Source: Sulfurihydrogenibium azorense Az-Fu1 | GTDB taxonomy: Bacteria > Aquificota > Aquificia > Aquificales > Hydrogenothermaceae | Reading direction: 5' to 3' | DNA length: 64,000 nucleotides | Assembly (NCBI RefSeq): GCF_000021545.1 | Contig: NC_012438.1 | Location: forward strand, 866,003 to 930,002 | Shown here: positions 2,253 through 63,987 of the stretch, one piece after another | Layout: each line of letters opens with the position of its first letter | How positions within the stretch are numbered: the stretch's first letter is position 1 | Program-made: the position numbers and the translations under genes | Notes under the pieces: model-generated | Database searches by the model: none | What the model saw: only the letters and a program-made list of their open reading frames with translations | What the model was told of the DNA's origin: nothing

Positions 2253-3128
2253 ATGAGGAAATTTTTAATATTAAAACTTATTTTACTAGTTTTTATACTA
2301 AACTCTTGTGCTCAACAAGGGATAAACAGTAATACAGATTATACAAGCTCAGTTGATGGAAAGTACCTGTACGATATGGGGGTATCATATCTAAGTAGTG
2401 GTAATAACGCCATGGCTATTTCTTACTTAGAAAAAGCTTTAGAAATAAATAAACAACCGGAAGTTTACAACTCCTTAGCTCTTGCTTATCAATTTGCAGG
2501 AGAGTACGAAAAAGCTTTAAAAACTTTTAAAGAAGGGTTAGAGAGGTATCCAAACTCTCCAGAACTTCTAACAAACTATGGAATTCTCCTTGCAGTTTTA
2601 AAAAAGTATAACGAGGCTATTACCTATCTTGAAAAAGCAGTAAATCATCCAACTTACCCAAAAAAAGAGATAGCATTCTATAATTTAGGTTTAATTTATA
2701 GAGAGCTTGGAAAGGAAGATAAATTTATTGATTATGTAAACAAAGCCATTATGTACAACTCTAACTACCTCAATGCATACCTCACACTTGGGGACTACTA
2801 CTATGAAAGATACAAAAAATACAAAAACCTCTTAGATTTAAAAATTTCAAGGGATTACTACGCTAAAGCATTACAACTAAGTATTAACGACCCTATCATA
2901 TTCTACAAATTGGGTTTAGTTTATAAAAACCTAAACCAAGTAGATTTAGCAAAATTTTATTTAGAAAAGGCTTTAAAGGCTTCTCAAGATAATAAAAGTC
3001 TGCAAGAAGAGATAAAAAAAGTATTATTTGATTTAGTTGAAAATCCAAAAAGTGAAGAAAATTTAAATCCTAACAATGAGTCGAAAACCAACAATGAAGC
3101 TGACCAAATAAAAAATTTGATAAAATAA
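2253..3128 (+). CDS. TPR-repeat lipoprotein
   Basis: 291 aa. The N-terminus is a lipoprotein signal with hydrophobic stretch LILLVFIL and lipobox LNSC (Cys19), so the mature protein should be lipidated and membrane-anchored in the periplasm. From about residue 38 to 260 there are at least five TPR units recognisable by A-x-x-x-L/Y-x-K-A-L patterns (SYLEKALEIN, TYLEKAVNHP, FYLEKALKAS). The tail is rich in Asn and Glu. TPR lipoproteins act as scaffolds, for example PilF/PilW of type IV pili or outer-membrane assembly factors. The window contains pilin genes, but far away, so a pilus role is only possible. No Shine-Dalgarno precedes the ATG. The 20-nt gap from the regulator gene may hold its own promoter. 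Confidence 0.8.
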   Translation: MRKFLILKLILLVFILNSCAQQGINSNTDYTSSVDGKYLYDMGVSYLSSGNNAMAISYLEKALEINKQPEVYNSLALAYQFAGEYEKALKTFKEGLERYPNSPELLTNYGILLAVLKKYNEAITYLEKAVNHPTYPKKEIAFYNLGLIYRELGKEDKFIDYVNKAIMYNSNYLNAYLTLGDYYYERYKKYKNLLDLKISRDYYAKALQLSINDPIIFYKLGLVYKNLNQVDLAKFYLEKALKASQDNKSLQEEIKKVLFDLVENPKSEENLNPNNESKTNNEADQIKNLIK

Positions 3129-3137
3129 AGGAGAGAC

Positions 3138-4121
3138 ATGGATAAGAAAGTTTACTTATCTATCGTTGTTCCCATTTATAACGAAGAAGAAAATTTACCA
3201 ATACTTTACAAAAAAATAAAAGATGTGCTGGAAAATCTTTTCAATCAAGAGAGATATAAAGACAAGACATATGAAATAATTTTTGTAAATGATGGAAGTA
3301 AAGACAAATCTTGGCAGATAATAAAAGAATTAGCAGAAAAAGACCCTCACGTTATTGGGATAAACTTTAGAAGGAATTTTGGTCAGACAGCTGCAATGGC
3401 TGCAGGTTTTGACAAAGCTCAAGGAGAGATTATCGTAACAATGGATGGAGACCTTCAAAATGACCCAGAAGATATTCCAAAACTCCTTGAAAAGATAGAT
3501 GAAGGTTATGATGTTGTAAGTGGATGGAGAAAAGACAGAAAAGATGCCTTTTTAAGTAGGACACTACCCTCAAGGATAGCAAACTGGCTTATATCAAAAA
3601 CTACAGGTGTATATTTACACGATTATGGATGCTCCTTAAAAGCTTACAGGTCAGAAGTGGCAAAAAGTTTAGACTCTTACGGAGAGATGCATAGGTTCTT
3701 ACCTGCTTTAGCAAAGATAGTAGGAGCTAACATCACAGAGATTCCAGTTAAACACCATCCAAGGATATATGGAAAGTCTAAATACGGCATATCAAGAACT
3801 TTTAAAGTGATTTTAGATTTACTCTGGGTAAAGTTTTTGATAGATTATAGAAATAAACCTCTTAGAGTGTTTGGAGGTTTTGGATTTTTATTCTTAGTGA
3901 TAGGTTTTTTAACTTTATTCTACCTTGCATGTGAAAAGATATGTTTAGGACATTCAATAGGAAACAGGCCACTATTGATGTTTGGAATGTTATCGTTTTT
4001 AACCGGAATAAACCTTATATCTACTGGAATAATAGCTGAAATTATAATAAGGACTTATTATGAGTCTCAAGGTAAAAAGCCTTATGTTATAAAAGGGGTA
4101 ATACAAAAAAAGAATGAATAA
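3138..4121 (+). CDS. GT2 glycosyltransferase with C-terminal membrane anchor
   Basis: 327 aa, with AAAGGAGAG just before the ATG. The GT-A fold starts with LSIVVPIYNEEENL and contains FVNDGSKDKSW and the metal/nucleotide motif MDGDLQNDP. Two predicted transmembrane helices lie at about 243-265 and 278-300. This architecture is that of the DPM1/GtrB/ArnC group, which moves a sugar from a nucleotide donor to undecaprenyl phosphate on the cytoplasmic face of the membrane. The downstream flippase-like gene overlaps by 8 nt, which suits a sugar-lipid pathway. The sugar cannot be read from sequence. Confidence 0.85.
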   Translation: MDKKVYLSIVVPIYNEEENLPILYKKIKDVLENLFNQERYKDKTYEIIFVNDGSKDKSWQIIKELAEKDPHVIGINFRRNFGQTAAMAAGFDKAQGEIIVTMDGDLQNDPEDIPKLLEKIDEGYDVVSGWRKDRKDAFLSRTLPSRIANWLISKTTGVYLHDYGCSLKAYRSEVAKSLDSYGEMHRFLPALAKIVGANITEIPVKHHPRIYGKSKYGISRTFKVILDLLWVKFLIDYRNKPLRVFGGFGFLFLVIGFLTLFYLACEKICLGHSIGNRPLLMFGMLSFLTGINLISTGIIAEIIIRTYYESQGKKPYVIKGVIQKKNE

Positions 4122-30993: not shown

Positions 30994-31159
30994 CTATCTG
31001 CCGAATTGCCGTCGTTGTCCTATCGAAAATGGCAGTTTTTGAGTCTCAATTAGAAGGGGTTTATTGAGATTAATTGAGTTAAGTGATTGAAAAATAATCA
31101 CTGTCTATCTCCAGTGATTTTTGCAGGATCGGAGGTCGACAGGAAAAAATATATTCCGG
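30994..31159 (+). other. Structured intergenic segment of unknown function
   Basis: No ORF. It holds several hairpins: CTGCC/GGCAG followed by TTTTT (30998-31040), TCTCAAT/ATTGAGA with 12-nt loop (31044-31069), and two mutually exclusive stems sharing AATCACT (31082-31102 and 31096-31119, the latter followed by T's). The last 40 nt are less A/T rich than the surroundings. IS copy 1 abuts it without a target duplication, so the segment may have come from elsewhere. It could be an ncRNA, an attenuator or a relic. Confidence 0.4.
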
Positions 31160-32261
31160 TGTATAAGTTTCAATACACAGTGAACACCTACCCCTTTAAA
31201 ATAATTTCAACAAAAACAGGAGGTAGGTTATATGAAAGGTATTATAGGAACCCCCTATGTATATGACAACACTCTTTCCTAAAAAACTATCAAACAAGAT
31301 TAAAGACATTCCTTTAACAAAAGAAGCCAAAAAAAGACTAAAATGGATACAGCACTACCAAGATACAAAAAATATATCCAAAACCTGCAGATACTTCGGA
31401 ATATCAAGAACTACCTTCTATAAATGGTTTGAAAGATACAAAAAAGACGGACTTGAAGGACTTCTTGATAGACCTAAAACACCAAAAAACACAAGAAAAC
31501 CAACTATAAGAAATCAGTACAGAGAACAAATAATAAAAGTCAGGAAACAAAACCCAACTTGGAGCAAAGAAAAAATATCGGCATATCTACAAGAAGAAAA
31601 AAACATAAAAGTATCACCATCTACAGTGTATAAAGTATTAAAAGAAGAAGGATTAATAGAGAGAACAAAATCAATTAAAATACAAAACAAAAGAAAAAAG
31701 AGTATAAAGAAGAAAAGGACAAAAAGAGGCTTGCAAGCACAAGCCCCAGGGGATGTAGTACAAATAGACGTAAAACACCTGAACATCGCAGGTGCAACAT
31801 ATTACCAATTCACAGCTATAGATAAGTATAGCAGATTTTGTTTTGCACGGGTATATGAAAGTAAAAATTCAAAGAAAACAAAAGAATTTTATATTGAGTT
31901 AAATGAGTATTTTGAATTTGAGATAAAGAGGGTACAAACAGATAACGGGAGTGAGTTTTTAGGGGAGTTTAACAAGTATTTAACGGATATAGGAGTGGAG
32001 CATTACTTTAGCTATCCAAGGAGTCCAAAGACTAATGGTGTTGTAGAAAGATTGATAAGGACAATAGAAGAGGAGTTATGGTTGATAGAGGGATTAGATT
32101 ACACATTAGAGGAGATGAATAAGAAGTTAAGGAAGTATGTAAGGAAGTACAATTTTATAAGGCCACATCATTCTTTAGGATACAAAAGACCAGCAGACAT
32201 TGTTTATGGAGTATGATAAAATTTTTAGGTGAAGGTGTTCACGATGTATAGAACTCATACA
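31160..32261 (+). mobile_element. IS481-like insertion sequence, copy 1 (1102 bp)
   Basis: The ends were set by comparison with copy 2: identity begins at TGTATAAG (31160) and stops at ATACA (32261). Imperfect terminal inverted repeats of 28-29 bp end in GTGAACACC and have TGT...ACA tips. The flanking 5-mers differ (TCCGG on the left, CCAAA on the right), so there is no target duplication. It carries one DDE transposase. Confidence 0.9.
31257..32216 (+). CDS. IS481-like DDE transposase, copy 1 (5' end frameshifted)
   Basis: 319 aa from ATG 31257. Compared with copy 2, the native start (ATG 31232 behind GGAGG) is put out of frame by a fifth C at 31251-31255. The remaining frame lacks only the first eight residues but has no ribosome site. 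HTH region SKTCRYFGISRTTFYKWFERYK, then an integrase core with Asp in VVQIDVKHL, Asp in QTDNGSEFL and Glu in NGVVERL. The shared residues are identical to copy 2. Activity may be reduced rather than abolished. Confidence 0.85.
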   Translation: MYMTTLFPKKLSNKIKDIPLTKEAKKRLKWIQHYQDTKNISKTCRYFGISRTTFYKWFERYKKDGLEGLLDRPKTPKNTRKPTIRNQYREQIIKVRKQNPTWSKEKISAYLQEEKNIKVSPSTVYKVLKEEGLIERTKSIKIQNKRKKSIKKKRTKRGLQAQAPGDVVQIDVKHLNIAGATYYQFTAIDKYSRFCFARVYESKNSKKTKEFYIELNEYFEFEIKRVQTDNGSEFLGEFNKYLTDIGVEHYFSYPRSPKTNGVVERLIRTIEEELWLIEGLDYTLEEMNKKLRKYVRKYNFIRPHHSLGYKRPADIVYGV

Positions 32262-32266
32262 CCAAA

Positions 32267-32296
32267 TTGATAAAAATCCATAACTAATGCTATAAT
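32267..32296 (+). promoter_or_regulatory. Leaderless promoter of smc, abutting IS copy 1
   Basis: TTGATA (32267-32272), 18-nt spacer, TATAAT (32291-32296), then 6 nt to ATG 32303. No Shine-Dalgarno is present. The -35 begins 6 nt after the IS end. Confidence 0.65.
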
Positions 32297-60037: not shown

Positions 60038-61903
60038 TTACTCCTCCGGTAAAAGATAAGATTGTTTTGGATTATTATACGCTCTCAAAGCTTTATAAAT
60101 TTCTATAAATGATTGATTCTGTGGAGATAAGTATATTTTAAGTCTAAAAGGTGCTAAAAATTTACCATAAGAGATAGATGCATCAACATCGATCTCATTG
60201 AGTTTAAATGTCGGAACAATACTACTTGCTAAAACTAAATATGCATTTGAAAAGAAATTACACATCTCTAAAGTAAACGGATCATCTACATTATGATTAA
60301 GACAGACATCTGTTGATAGAAATTTTGCCTTTTCTATATTTATTCTATTATACCACTGAGGCGGTGTAGTATCATTTTTATTTACATAAAAAAATGTAAA
60401 TAAGAAAGGTTTTATTTCTACAAAATTATACAGTGGATGAGTAGGTGCAAGTGCAACAGTTGATATAAATATTTTTTTATTCATAATTTCATTTAAATTT
60501 CCTGCAAAAAATTCAGGAATTAAAGGTTTATAAATTTCTTTAGGTTTACAACCTTCCACTCTCCATTCAATACTATTATAGTAGTGTGATGTTATATGAC
60601 AAACATCATCTCTGTATCTACCAACAAGCTTTAGATACCAAAGTTCAAATGTATGATTATCCCCATAAGTACTAACCAAAGATGCAACAGGACTGTATGA
60701 TAGTAAATCTTTTGCGTGGTAGTAAGGAACCCAGTTGTTAAAGTGATTGGTTTCTACAAATCGGGAAAACAAAAATGTAAAAGGAAAAACAACAAGTACT
60801 GGTAAAATTACACTATAAACAAAATTAAAACCCCTTTCTTTTAAAAACTCAAAAAATTTATATAAAAAGTAGCAGCAAAAAACGATGAGAAAAGATAATG
60901 CAGGTAAAAAGTACTGATTTCCAGACACATAAACAGTTGCTAAGTCCAAAACTTCACTACTCAAAGTTATTTTGCCTAGTATAACAGAATATAAAAAGAA
61001 CGAAGTAAACAAAAATAAGAATAATTTCTTATTACTTTTGTAAAGTAAGTAAGCACCAATAAATGCTAAAAATACAAAAGCATACGAAAAATTGACACTA
61101 AAAAGATAGAATAGATTTTTTAATGTGTATATGTAAGAGTCAATAGTACTAACTACACCTTTTGTTGCATCAATAGAAGAACTTTCTCCGTAAAACTTTC
61201 TAAGAATCATTGCTATAAACCTTTCAAGAGTATCAGCTTTATGAGCTGCAGAGAAAGTATCTTTTATACTTCGTATGTATAAATGTAAATTAACAAAAAA
61301 ACCAATAATAAAAAATAAAAAAGACAGTGGAATAAGTCTAACAAACTGTCTACAGTAATACAAACCTACGATAAACAAAGGTAAAAACATTATCAGAAGT
61401 GTATGATGAATAGAAGATCCTATACCCAGTAAAAATGCGGATAGATAGACTAATCTTTTGTCTAAGTTGTCACTTTTTAGGACTTTTATACCTAAATAAG
61501 TAAGTAATAAGATAAAAAATAAATTTAAAGTATAAAACTTTATAACAACCGAATTATAATAAAAAGAGTAAGAAACAGCTAAAAAGGACACACTAATCAA
61601 TCCATATATAGGTTTGTTTGTTAAATCCGTAACAATCAAGTAAAGTAAATAAAGAGATAAAGCTGAAAATATAACTGTAAGTAAACCAATTCTTATTCCA
61701 ATGTTTGCTACAGGTAATAGGGAGAAAAGTTTTGATAACTCAATATAAAAAGGGTATCCGGGGGGATGGGCTATTCCAAGTAGATGGCTTGCTACTACTA
61801 ACCCTCCACCATCACCTGTAGAAAACACAGGAAACAATGAAAATACATATAAGATTATAATAAGTGCAAGCAATATGTTTACATTTATTACTCTACGGTA
61901 CAT
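60038..61903 (-). CDS. DUF2723 (PMT-like) membrane glycosyltransferase
   Basis: 621 aa. FSTGDGGGLVVASHLLGIAHPPGYPFYI is the DUF2723 hallmark (acidic GD and HPPGYP), followed by about 11 membrane helices and a C-terminal periplasmic domain from about residue 390. The family is related to protein O-mannosyltransferases that use polyprenol-phosphate sugars. Lying directly behind two pilin genes (16-nt overlap with the second), it is a good candidate for a pilin or surface-protein O-glycosyltransferase (inference). Confidence 0.8.
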   Translation of the reverse strand: MYRRVINVNILLALIIILYVFSLFPVFSTGDGGGLVVASHLLGIAHPPGYPFYIELSKLFSLLPVANIGIRIGLLTVIFSALSLYLLYLIVTDLTNKPIYGLISVSFLAVSYSFYYNSVVIKFYTLNLFFILLLTYLGIKVLKSDNLDKRLVYLSAFLLGIGSSIHHTLLIMFLPLFIVGLYYCRQFVRLIPLSFLFFIIGFFVNLHLYIRSIKDTFSAAHKADTLERFIAMILRKFYGESSSIDATKGVVSTIDSYIYTLKNLFYLFSVNFSYAFVFLAFIGAYLLYKSNKKLFLFLFTSFFLYSVILGKITLSSEVLDLATVYVSGNQYFLPALSFLIVFCCYFLYKFFEFLKERGFNFVYSVILPVLVVFPFTFLFSRFVETNHFNNWVPYYHAKDLLSYSPVASLVSTYGDNHTFELWYLKLVGRYRDDVCHITSHYYNSIEWRVEGCKPKEIYKPLIPEFFAGNLNEIMNKKIFISTVALAPTHPLYNFVEIKPFLFTFFYVNKNDTTPPQWYNRINIEKAKFLSTDVCLNHNVDDPFTLEMCNFFSNAYLVLASSIVPTFKLNEIDVDASISYGKFLAPFRLKIYLSPQNQSFIEIYKALRAYNNPKQSYLLPEE

Positions 61904-62292
61904 ATTACTCCTTTATTATTAAAAAAACATTTTGCTGTATAATCTGTTATACCGTTTAAATTTCCTGTAATAGTTCCATTAGAAACATAGCCATTAGTAT
62001 CACAGGTTATAGTCCCAGAAATATTTATTTGAAGGCTACTGTTTGGAACTATGGTATTTTGACAATTTTTTAATGTAGATACATCTATTGTCGTAGTTGA
62101 ATTTATATTTCTCTCTTGACATTCACCTGCTGCATCGTAAGCACAGGCCTTTACAATAGGCAAAGCATAGGAGGTTACTTTAGATTTATTTTTATACTTC
62201 ATATAGCTAGGTAGTGCAATACTTGCAAGTATTGAGATTATCACTATCACAATTATTAGTTCTATCAAACTGAAGCCTTCTTCTGCTTTCAT
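61888..62292 (-). CDS. Type IV pilin (second copy)
   Basis: 134 aa. Short leader with prepilin peptidase site EEG/FSLIELIIVIVIISILASIALP (F+1, E+5), then a small beta domain with a C-terminal Cys pair (KACAYDAAGEC, CFFNNKGVIC). It is less well conserved than the first pilin and lies after a strong hairpin, so it may be a minor pilin. It ends inside the DUF2723 gene. Confidence 0.92.
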   Translation of the reverse strand: MKAEEGFSLIELIIVIVIISILASIALPSYMKYKNKSKVTSYALPIVKACAYDAAGECQERNINSTTTIDVSTLKNCQNTIVPNSSLQINISGTITCDTNGYVSNGTITGNLNGITDYTAKCFFNNKGVICTVE

Positions 62293-62304
62293 TTTGATTA
62301 CCTC

Positions 62305-62328
62305 AAAAGGCAGGCCAAGAGCCTGCCT
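62305..62328 (-). terminator. Intercistronic hairpin between the two pilin genes
   Basis: Perfect 8-bp G/C-rich stem AGGCAGGC / GCCTGCCT with a 5-nt loop, followed by TTTT on the minus strand. It sits after the first pilin stop and before the second pilin. It could end or attenuate transcription, or protect the pilin mRNA. Confidence 0.7.
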
Positions 62329-62343
62329 AAGATACTTAGATTA

Positions 62344-62769
62344 TTATTGAACCGTACACTTAAATCCTTCAGGTTTAGCAGTACATACAGCTTTATAATC
62401 TGAAACGCCTGATAAAGCTGCAGTAACAGTTCCGCCAGTTAAAGATCCACTATCCTGACAGTTTATATTTGCTACACTTATAGTAACCTGCCCCCCAGGT
62501 GTATTTACTGGAGATGCACAATTTTTACCATTAGTTTGATCGATGGTTATCTGGCCTGTATCTGTTGGTGGGTTTTCTACACAGTATGCAGCTAAGTCCA
62601 TCAAGCAAGCTCGTGCTAAAGGTTCTGCATAGGAAGAAACCTTTGCCTTTTGCTGATACTTCATGTACTGGGGAATGGCAATGGATGCAAGAATTGCGAT
62701 GATTGCGATAACGATGAGGAGCTCAATGAGGGTGAAACCCTTGTTGTTACTTCTGACTGTGTTTAACAT
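62344..62769 (-). CDS. Type IV pilin (major-type)
   Basis: 141 aa, AGGAGG before ATG. Cleavage site NKG/FTLIELLIVIAIIAILASIAIP (F+1, E+5), then KYQQKAKVSSYAEPLARACL and a C-terminal disulfide region (CTAKPEGFKC). PilA-type pilins build the fibre for twitching, adhesion and DNA uptake. It is first in the cluster and followed by a hairpin, as for highly expressed pilins. Its promoter is split by IS copy 2. Confidence 0.94.
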   Translation of the reverse strand: MLNTVRSNNKGFTLIELLIVIAIIAILASIAIPQYMKYQQKAKVSSYAEPLARACLMDLAAYCVENPPTDTGQITIDQTNGKNCASPVNTPGGQVTISVANINCQDSGSLTGGTVTAALSGVSDYKAVCTAKPEGFKCTVQ

Positions 62770-62805
62770 ATCTACTACCTCCTAAAAAATTAATTTACAT
62801 TAAAT

Positions 62806-62834
62806 AATATACAGTGAATTTTTTTATTTGTGTA
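62806..62834 (-). promoter_or_regulatory. Pilin promoter with -35 destroyed by IS copy 2
   Basis: On the minus strand -10 TATATT (62811-62806) and a 17-nt spacer lead to TACACA (62834-62829), half IS sequence. Joining the outer flank at 63937-63940 across the target duplication restores TTGACA. Confidence 0.75.
62826..62830. repeat. Target site duplication of IS copy 2 (left)
   Basis: ATTTG, directly before the IS tip at 62831; identical to 63932-63936. Confidence 0.85.
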
Positions 62835-63931
62835 TGAGTTCTATACATCGTGAACACCTTCACCTAAAAATTTTATCATACTCCATAAACAATGTCTGCT
62901 GGTCTTTTGTATCCTAAAGAATGATGTGGCCTTATAAAATTGTACTTCCTTACATACTTCCTTAACTTCTTATTCATCTCCTCTAATGTGTAATCTAATC
63001 CCTCTATCAACCATAACTCCTCTTCTATTGTCCTTATCAATCTTTCTACAACACCATTAGTCTTTGGACTCCTTGGATAGCTAAAGTAATGCTCCACTCC
63101 TATATCCGTTAAATACTTGTTAAACTCCCCTAAAAACTCACTCCCGTTATCTGTTTGTACCCTCTTTATCTCAAATTCAAAATACTCATTTAACTCAATA
63201 TAAAATTCTTTTGTTTTCTTTGAATTTTTACTTTCATATACCCGTGCAAAACAAAATCTGCTATACTTATCTATAGCTGTGAATTGGTAATATGTTGCAC
63301 CTGCGATGTTCAGGTGTTTTACGTCTATTTGTACTACATCCCCTGGGGCTTGTGCTTGCAAGCCTCTTTTTGTCCTTTTCTTCTTTATACTCTTTTTTCT
63401 TTTGTTTTGTATTTTAATTGATTTTGTTCTCTCTATTAATCCTTCTTCTTTTAATACTTTATACACTGTAGATGGTGATACTTTTATGTTTTTTTCTTCT
63501 TGTAGATATGCCGATATTTTTTCTTTGCTCCAAGTTGGGTTTTGTTTCCTGACTTTTATTATTTGTTCTCTGTACTGATTTCTTATAGTTGGTTTTCTTG
63601 TGTTTTTTGGTGTTTTAGGTCTATCAAGAAGTCCTTCAAGTCCGTCTTTTTTGTATCTTTCAAACCATTTATAGAAGGTAGTTCTTGATATTCCGAAGTA
63701 TCTGCAGGTTTTGGATATATTTTTTGTATCTTGGTAGTGCTGTATCCATTTTAGTCTTTTTTTGGCTTCTTTTGTTAAAGGAATGTCTTTAATCTTGTTT
63801 GATAGTTTTTTAGGAAAGAGTGTTGTCATATACATAGGGGTTCCTATAATACCTTTCATATAACCTACCTCCTGTTTTTGTTGAAATTATTTTAAAGGGG
63901 TAGGTGTTCACTGTGTATTGAAACTTATACA
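62831..63931 (-). mobile_element. IS481-like insertion sequence, copy 2 (1101 bp)
   Basis: TGTATGAG...CTTATACA ends, imperfect 28-29 bp inverted repeats, flanked by the 5-bp duplication ATTTG. One bp shorter than copy 1 because of the C4/C5 difference. The orientation is opposite to copy 1. It lies 61 bp from the pilin ATG. Confidence 0.93.
62876..63859 (-). CDS. IS481-like DDE transposase, copy 2 (intact)
   Basis: 327 aa from the ATG behind GGAGG. It starts MKGIIGTPMYMTTLF and then matches copy 1 residue for residue. N-terminal HTH (SKTCRYFGISRTTFYKWF), a second helical HTH-like part (NPTWSKEKISAYLQEEKNIK), and an integrase core with the DDE triad in VVQIDVKHL, QTDNGSEFL and NGVVERL. It is the likely active copy and could act on both elements. 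Confidence 0.94.
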   Translation of the reverse strand: MKGIIGTPMYMTTLFPKKLSNKIKDIPLTKEAKKRLKWIQHYQDTKNISKTCRYFGISRTTFYKWFERYKKDGLEGLLDRPKTPKNTRKPTIRNQYREQIIKVRKQNPTWSKEKISAYLQEEKNIKVSPSTVYKVLKEEGLIERTKSIKIQNKRKKSIKKKRTKRGLQAQAPGDVVQIDVKHLNIAGATYYQFTAIDKYSRFCFARVYESKNSKKTKEFYIELNEYFEFEIKRVQTDNGSEFLGEFNKYLTDIGVEHYFSYPRSPKTNGVVERLIRTIEEELWLIEGLDYTLEEMNKKLRKYVRKYNFIRPHHSLGYKRPADIVYGV

Positions 63932-63936
63932 ATTTG
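63932..63936. repeat. Target site duplication of IS copy 2 (right)
   Basis: ATTTG, directly after the IS tip at 63931. Confidence 0.85.
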
Positions 63937-63987
63937 TCAATATGTATTCACAATTTTTTCACGAACTATTTTTTATAGGAAGCTTCA

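Follow-up and report, generated by a model that had tools for sequence, protein, structure and literature searches.

Oriented insertion upstream of sigma-A promoters has been described for the TnGBS, ISLre2 and ISKra4 elements, which encode Mutator-like transposases (p-MULT 3 and 4); most of them are oriented, and their junction lies at a fixed distance of 13-17 bp from the -35 box (PMC3942029). The authors of that paper proposed a contact between the TnGBS transposase and the RNA polymerase initiation complex, and the paper also refers to the integrase of yeast Ty3, which contacts TFIIIB/TFIIIC (PMC3942029). The name IS481 does not occur in its main text. For IS481 of Bordetella pertussis, the reported recognition sequence is NCTAGN and the target duplication 6 bp; the element has also been reported to insert ahead of a gene and to carry an outward promoter that transcribes its neighbors (PMC3053399). 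A literature search, judged from titles and the beginnings of abstracts, yielded no paper on promoter targeting by IS481.

Here we describe an IS481-family element inserted in the promoter of a type IV pilin gene of Sulfurihydrogenibium azorense Az-Fu1, together with related copies from the same phylum. The window, that is, the whole stretch of 64,000 nucleotides that was analyzed, covers positions 866003-930002 of the genome denoted G000, a single contig of 1,640,877 bases. In common with TnGBS, ISLre2 and ISKra4, the IS481 groups examined here show oriented insertion upstream of sigma-70/A promoters. The transposases differ, however, being Mutator/IS256-like in the former and of the IS481 type here, and so do the distances, 13-17 bp as against a peak at 5 bp in all three IS481 groups. 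The behavior itself is thus known, but both the transposase family and the phase differ from those of the known promoter-targeting elements. Bordetella IS481 shares its family name with the model matched by the transposase in the window, but no promoter phase is described in the available text of PMC3053399, whereas the groups analyzed here peak at 5 bp.

Organization of the pilin locus

The features of the locus, in window coordinates, are as follows.

60038..61903, minus strand: membrane protein of the O-mannosyltransferase type, TMEM260-like, located downstream within the cluster (PF11028, 84.2 bits)
61888..62292, minus strand: second pilin-like gene, 134 aa (PF07963, 31.8 bits)
62299..62334, minus strand: strong hairpin separating the two pilin genes, resembling a terminator on visual inspection (-19.6 kcal/mol, z -3.29; of 200 shuffled sequences, none folds as stably)
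62344..62769, minus strand: type IV pilin, 141 aa (PF07963 N_methyl, 41.8 bits)
62778..62783, minus strand: Shine-Dalgarno sequence AGGAGG of the pilin gene
62806..62811, minus strand: -10 box TATATT of the pilin promoter (the 17-nt spacing is also found in G005 and G002)
62826..62830: target duplication ATTTG, pilin side
62829..62834, minus strand: hexamer TACACA at the present -35 position (CA genomic, TACA from the IS)
62831..63931, minus strand: IS481-family insertion sequence, 1101 bp, with boundaries from the comparison of genomic copies; on the transposase strand it begins TGTATAAGTTTC... and ends ...GAACTCATACA
62876..63859, minus strand: transposase, 327 aa, codirectional with the pilin gene
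63932..63936: target duplication ATTTG, far side
63935..63940, minus strand: native -35 box TTGACA, complete, now about 1.1 kb from its -10 box

The preliminary description of this DNA reported ATTTG on both sides of the element, and the two repeats are indeed present at 62826-62830 and 63932-63936. Rejoining the flanks with one copy of the duplication yields the proposed ancestral promoter, TTGACA-17-TATATT on the minus strand, followed by a leader of about 30 nt, AGGAGG and the start codon of the pilin gene (ATG, 62769). At the -35 position, the hexamer now reads TACACA (62834-62829), as described, with four of six consensus matches and 17 nt to TATATT (62811-62806). The comparison with relatives that had been suggested as a check did reveal an IS-free site: in G005, which belongs to the same genus and encodes a pilin 75% identical to that in the window, the target is empty and reads TTGACA-17-TATAGT. 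The pilin gene of G002 is preceded by TTGCTT-17-TATAAT, and the two sequences together indicate that the pilin promoter is conserved and that the empty site is real. Of the original claim that the insertion breaks the promoter, it holds that a sigma-70-type promoter, kept in a relative, is split at the -35 box, but the TTGACA hexamer itself is not destroyed; owing to the target duplication, the far side carries the full TTGACA and the pilin side CA alone.

The pilin has a class III prepilin N-terminus, scoring above the cut-offs of both PF07963 and TIGR02532. That it is the major pilin is suggested by its promoter, which is close to consensus, and by the hairpin following the gene. The hairpin, a G+C core followed by TTTT, was not among the terminators called by the terminator scan; such a structure would be expected between the pilin genes if the first one must be made in excess. 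Given this hairpin, the genes downstream need not track pilin expression, so that the loss of expression of the entire operon, as initially suggested, is uncertain.

The transposase contains HTH and rve integrase domains, as detected by profile search, and its top models are IS481 and IS3. It scores 251.5 bits against the curated model NF033577 (transpos_IS481; cut-off 224). No IS256 match was obtained at E 0.001, and the protein thus does not belong with the Mutator/IS256-like transposases of TnGBS, ISLre2 and ISKra4. G000 contains 13 full-length copies of the element, ten of 1101 bp and three of 1102 bp. The ten 1101-bp copies, that at the pilin locus included, show zero mismatches to the latter. 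In the 1102-bp copies (loci L005, L012 and L013), the transposase match begins at residue 5 and there is a stop within the stretch; the difference probably reflects one common change that was then copied. Short remnants of the element were also observed at G000:C1 1131-1264, 288694-288789, 514892-514948 and 799974-800040, the last with fragments of both IS ends side by side.

One of the 1102-bp copies, L012, lies within the window, and its 3' end, too, is oriented towards a promoter.

31160..32261, plus strand: the window's other complete copy of the element, 1102 bp
32267..32296, plus strand: promoter-like TTGATA-18-TATAAT, beginning 5 bp past the 3' end of this copy

The upstream flank of L012 (window 31100-31159) resembles that of L010, which is followed by a CRISPR-like array, and its downstream flank is a different promoter. 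L012 is probably a rearranged copy.

Related IS481 copies

Three groups of IS481 elements, all from the phylum Aquificota, were delineated by their end sequences and overall similarity; the taxonomy labels of the named relatives are Hydrogenothermaceae and Desulfurobacteriaceae. Group A (family f5) comprises copies in G122 (16 copies), G114, G123 and G124. Group B (family f1), the type found in the window, includes copies in G000, G003 (same genus), G005, G082 and G104 as well as L113. Group C is a diverged type in G002, G004 and G006, with 31-48% amino-acid identity over partial or full alignments. In G000, G003, G082, G104, G114, G122 and G123, the transposases of complete group A and group B copies exceed the cut-off of the IS481 model, whereas group C transposases, at about 180 bits, remain under the cut-off of 224, although IS481 is their best model. 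Elements of the IS481 family are characterized by short terminal inverted repeats beginning with TGT, a single transposase frame, a length of about 1 kb and a target duplication. All these features were found here. The lengths are 1122-1125 bp in group A, 1101-1104 bp in group B (apart from L085, 1083 bp by fuzzy ends, and the internally shortened L113, 655 bp) and 1185-1189 bp in group C where both ends are clear. Target duplications of 4-6 bp were identified in 22 copies; none of the 22 contains CTAG, so these copies do not follow the NCTAGN target rule of the Bordetella element.

The 3' end was readable in 24 copies of group A, 20 of group B and 10 of group C. Excluded from the counts were L074 (3' end unreadable, with a second copy beginning inside), L116 (degenerate end) and four copies with the 5' end only (L114, L117, L087 and L089). 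In L085, L113 and L089, one or both ends were matched with 5-7 errors, and the ends of L084 were set by hand. No relative of the IS was detected in plasmid records at E 1e-40. A 43% identical transposase is encoded on a contig labelled Shapirobacteria (L112), reflecting either transfer or mis-binning.

Position and orientation of promoters at the ends of IS481

For each copy, we determined N, the distance in base pairs from the IS end, read outward, to the start of a -35 hexamer. Throughout, promoters were identified as hexamer matches, the score being the number of matches to TTGACA and TATAAT (of 12) with 16-18 nt between them, and the threshold at least 9/12. In all three groups, promoters of this score are most frequent 5 bp past the 3' end (N=5; 17 of 24 copies in group A, 7 of 20 in group B and 6 of 10 in group C). 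By contrast, outward from the 5' ends, no promoter was found at N=5 (0/23, 0/19 and 0/9, respectively). The same asymmetry is apparent when promoters anywhere at N=0-20 are counted, with 19/24, 9/20 and 8/10 at the 3' ends versus 1/23, 3/19 and 1/9 at the 5' ends; in the 5'-end control, L163, L167 and L169 are poorly matched (7 errors) and count little. Among random positions of the 400-kb G122 sample, 25 of 4000 have such a promoter at N=4-6.

In the flanks, some of the most strongly conserved columns are those of TT and TTG; on the 3' side, 20/24, 7/20 and 7/10 copies of groups A, B and C have TTG at precisely N=5. With a 5-bp duplication, TTG at N=5 means that the edge of the duplication abuts the -35 hexamer. 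In 17 of the 22 copies with detectable duplications, TTG lies at N=4-6 (A, 10/10; C, 4/4; B, 3/8); three more (L001, L003 and L007) were seen by eye to lie within a core promoter, oriented in the same way.

The -10 box provides a further measure. A -10 hexamer with at least 4/6 matches at a spacing of 16-18 accompanies TTG at N=4-6 in 35 of 38 copies (A, 21/23; B, 6/7; C, 8/8). The background was derived from 400-kb samples of G122 and G002, group B being tested against the G002 rate: 25-33% of the intergenic TTG sites in these genomes have such a -10 hexamer. Under the strictest background, with at least five -35 matches and a location within 200 bp upstream of a codirectional frame, the rate is 42.4% of 85 sites (G122) and 38.5% of 96 sites (G002). 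The binomial probabilities against this background are 1.3e-6 for group A, 4.8e-4 for group C and 0.015 for group B, to be read with the clustering of copies by group and host, which makes them not fully independent. Taken together, it is highly probable that insertions of these IS481 groups concentrate at sigma-70 promoters, with the 3' end facing the promoter, the transposase gene reading towards the target gene and the 5-bp target most often directly adjoining the upstream edge of the -35 hexamer, and that the pilin insertion is one such product.

Exceptions and nested insertions

Group B, to which the copy in the window belongs, is the loosest, 13 of its 20 copies being without TTG at N=4-6. 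At the pilin gene (L001), the HU-like gene (L003) and the phosphoglycerate mutase gene (L007), the element is displaced into the promoter by 9, 16 and 22 bp relative to the usual phase. It thus lies in the -35 box or immediately behind it, so that the promoter is split; the orientation is the usual one. Five of the 13 G000 copies (L002, L005, L006, L008 and L013) have neither a convincing promoter at the usual phase nor a duplication, which was likely caused by rearrangement between copies. L005 and L008 attain 9/12 only at N=23 and N=9, and L008 has TTG at N=5, yet with a -10 of only 2/6. Other group B copies (L084, L085, L088 and L170) have nothing at N=5. In the remaining groups, the misfits are L159 (group A) and L169 (group C), the latter with a promoter at 12 bp.

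In three nested cases (L004, L086 and L168), the sequence beyond the 3' end of one IS is a piece of an older 3' end, 48, 73 and 65 nt long, respectively. One of these, L086, hints that the 3' end of the IS behaves as a promoter.

Genes downstream of the targeted promoters

A tRNA gene lies directly downstream of 8 of the 15 readable G122 copies, compared with 2 of 171 promoter-like intergenic sites in the 400-kb sample of this genome, which contains only nine tRNA genes. Ty3 integrates beside tRNA genes, and the tRNA-promoter insertions in G122 resemble this outcome; the likeness is an analogy only, Ty3 being, unlike IS481, a retrotransposon that employs eukaryotic Pol III factors. SSU rRNA is downstream of L011 (G000), L065 (G122) and L169 (G006), ribosomal proteins L13, L28 and L25 are encoded behind L071, L080 and L158, respectively, and a NuoC-like gene follows L165. 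The other targets in G000 include the HU-like gene (L003) and the gene for phosphoglycerate mutase (L007), as well as one resembling leucyl aminopeptidase (L009). The argument that the split HU-like promoter must still function because the gene is essential was dropped, given that an 83% identical paralogue is present.

CRISPR-like repeat arrays are located downstream of L010 (G000; 2694-3340) and L162 (G002; 1492-1795). IS481 was thus observed just before a CRISPR-like leader promoter in two genomes and in two IS481 groups.

Transcription of the pilin gene after the insertion

With the native -35 box displaced, transcription from the native -10 box of the pilin gene is likely reduced. The pilin could be transcribed weakly from the hybrid junction, from the 3' end of the IS or by read-through from the transposase gene. 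Two residual promoter candidates point towards the pilin, both scoring 9/12: TACACA-17-TATATT at the junction and the following site within the element.

62870..62898, minus strand: promoter-like CAGACA-17-TAAAAT with TG ahead of the -10 box, in the 3' end of the IS, facing the pilin gene; candidate outward promoter

It is conceivable, although somewhat less likely than not, that this outward promoter substitutes for the native one and that the insertion does not lower pilin expression. The site is also found, at 16-17 nt spacing, in L088, L170 and L171 of G005; however, its -35 hexamer lies within the transposase coding sequence, which confounds conservation, and CAGACA is absent from L084, L085 and L113 of group B. 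At a comparable place, L164 of group C has TTTACA-17-TAAATT (9/12), but inside the IS no more than 8/12 is attained by the two group A ends that were checked (L063 and L079) or by L160 of group C. In the nested L086, the newer IS is inserted 5 bp before TAGACA-17-TAAAAT of the older IS end. Substitution would also fit with the complete, open pilin frame and with the outward promoter of Bordetella IS481 (PMC3053399). Nevertheless, the promoter scan of the pilin region found nine promoter-like sites, close to the mean of 6.3 in shuffled sequences, so the two residual matches by themselves prove little.

Elements of other families

Two elements of other families served as controls. For an IS256-family element in G002, 21 of 36 matches were used, the partial ones being excluded; a promoter of at least 9/12 at N=0-20 was present at one of 21 3' ends and none of 21 5' ends. 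Thus, survival of insertions alone does not create the pattern in that genome.

The IS5-family element of G122 (L210-L229; NF033579, 204.9 bits), for which all 20 copies were used, behaves differently. Promoters of at least 9/12 at N=0-20 occur in 6/20 and 11/20 copies at the two ends, and at N=7-11 on one side in 13/20 copies versus 98/4000 random positions. Its duplications, identified by tolerant search, are 9-11 bp long, and in 9 of the 12 copies with a detectable duplication, the -35 hexamer starts no more than 2 bp from the duplication edge. The promoter preference is therefore not special to IS481; the result also favors a host landmark such as the sigma-bound -35 box. Among IS481 elements from other phyla, clear ends were obtained in just four of 16 (L174, L176, L178 and L179), and none of the four has a promoter at N=5, a comparison of little power.

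Possible basis of the target preference

We tentatively propose that the IS481 transposases of the three groups and, separately, that of the IS5-family element in one of their hosts may be guided by RNA polymerase holoenzyme on active promoters. The transpososome would dock on the holoenzyme, or on the sigma contacts at the -35 box, at active promoters. The orientation would be set by the asymmetric IS ends. In the usual phase, both promoter boxes stay whole; at the pilin, HU-like and phosphoglycerate mutase genes, the element landed further in, splitting the promoter. The upstream edge of the sigma-bound -35 box would set the point of strand transfer whatever the length of the duplication (5 bp for IS481, about 9-11 bp for IS5). 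Comparable sites would also result if the transposase recognized promoter DNA directly; the involvement of the polymerase is something we infer.

A simpler mechanism is that the transposase reads a short motif (TTGA or TTGAC) next to the cut and that purifying selection clears the intragenic insertions. Such a rule would account for both phase and orientation at no extra cost and for the prominence of TT and TTG in the flanks, and L076 may be a case in point, with TTGATA-17-TATCTT and no gene start visible by eye in the 110 nt shown. We nonetheless regard it as rather unlikely: a -10 hexamer with at least 4/6 matches accompanies 25-42% of the intergenic TTG sites versus 35/38 insertions with TTG at N=4-6, the tRNA bias (8/15 vs 2/171) is left unexplained by a short motif, and selection on insertions is at odds with the lack of promoter bias of the IS256-family element in G002.

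Some IS3-type elements have been described to select targets that resemble the inverted repeats of the element itself. Applied to IS481, promoters would be hit because they resemble a TTGAAC-like sequence in the repeats. The group A ends do contain TTGAA(G/C), and the three cases of nesting ahead of the 3' end of an older IS (L004, L086 and L168) would fit such a preference; however, in groups B and C the 5' repeats begin with TGTATAAG or TGTACAAG, with no TTGA at the tip, and yet the targets of these groups carry TTG at the same distance. The enrichment of -10 boxes is also left unexplained, and we consider this mechanism improbable.

That the pilin locus represents a single ordinary insertion in a -35 box, without a wider pattern, is very improbable: although IS481 itself is reported to insert upstream of genes (PMC3053399), the N=5 peak recurs in three groups and is absent at the 5' ends, with only 25 of 4000 random G122 positions scoring at N=4-6, and the 13 full-length copies in G000 together with the concentration of related copies at promoters place the pilin insertion beyond chance.

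Implications

Promoter targeting is on record for Mutator-like transposases (PMC3942029), to which IS481 and, apparently, an IS5-family element can now be added. The occurrence of IS481 and the IS5-family element at nearly the same edge of the -35 box in one host points to a landmark set by the host. The wider preference for promoters explains why the pilin promoter was hit. If guidance by the polymerase holds true, IS maps would record promoter occupancy in organisms that are hard to assay. The insertions could also serve to locate the strong promoters of uncultured thermophiles at base resolution.
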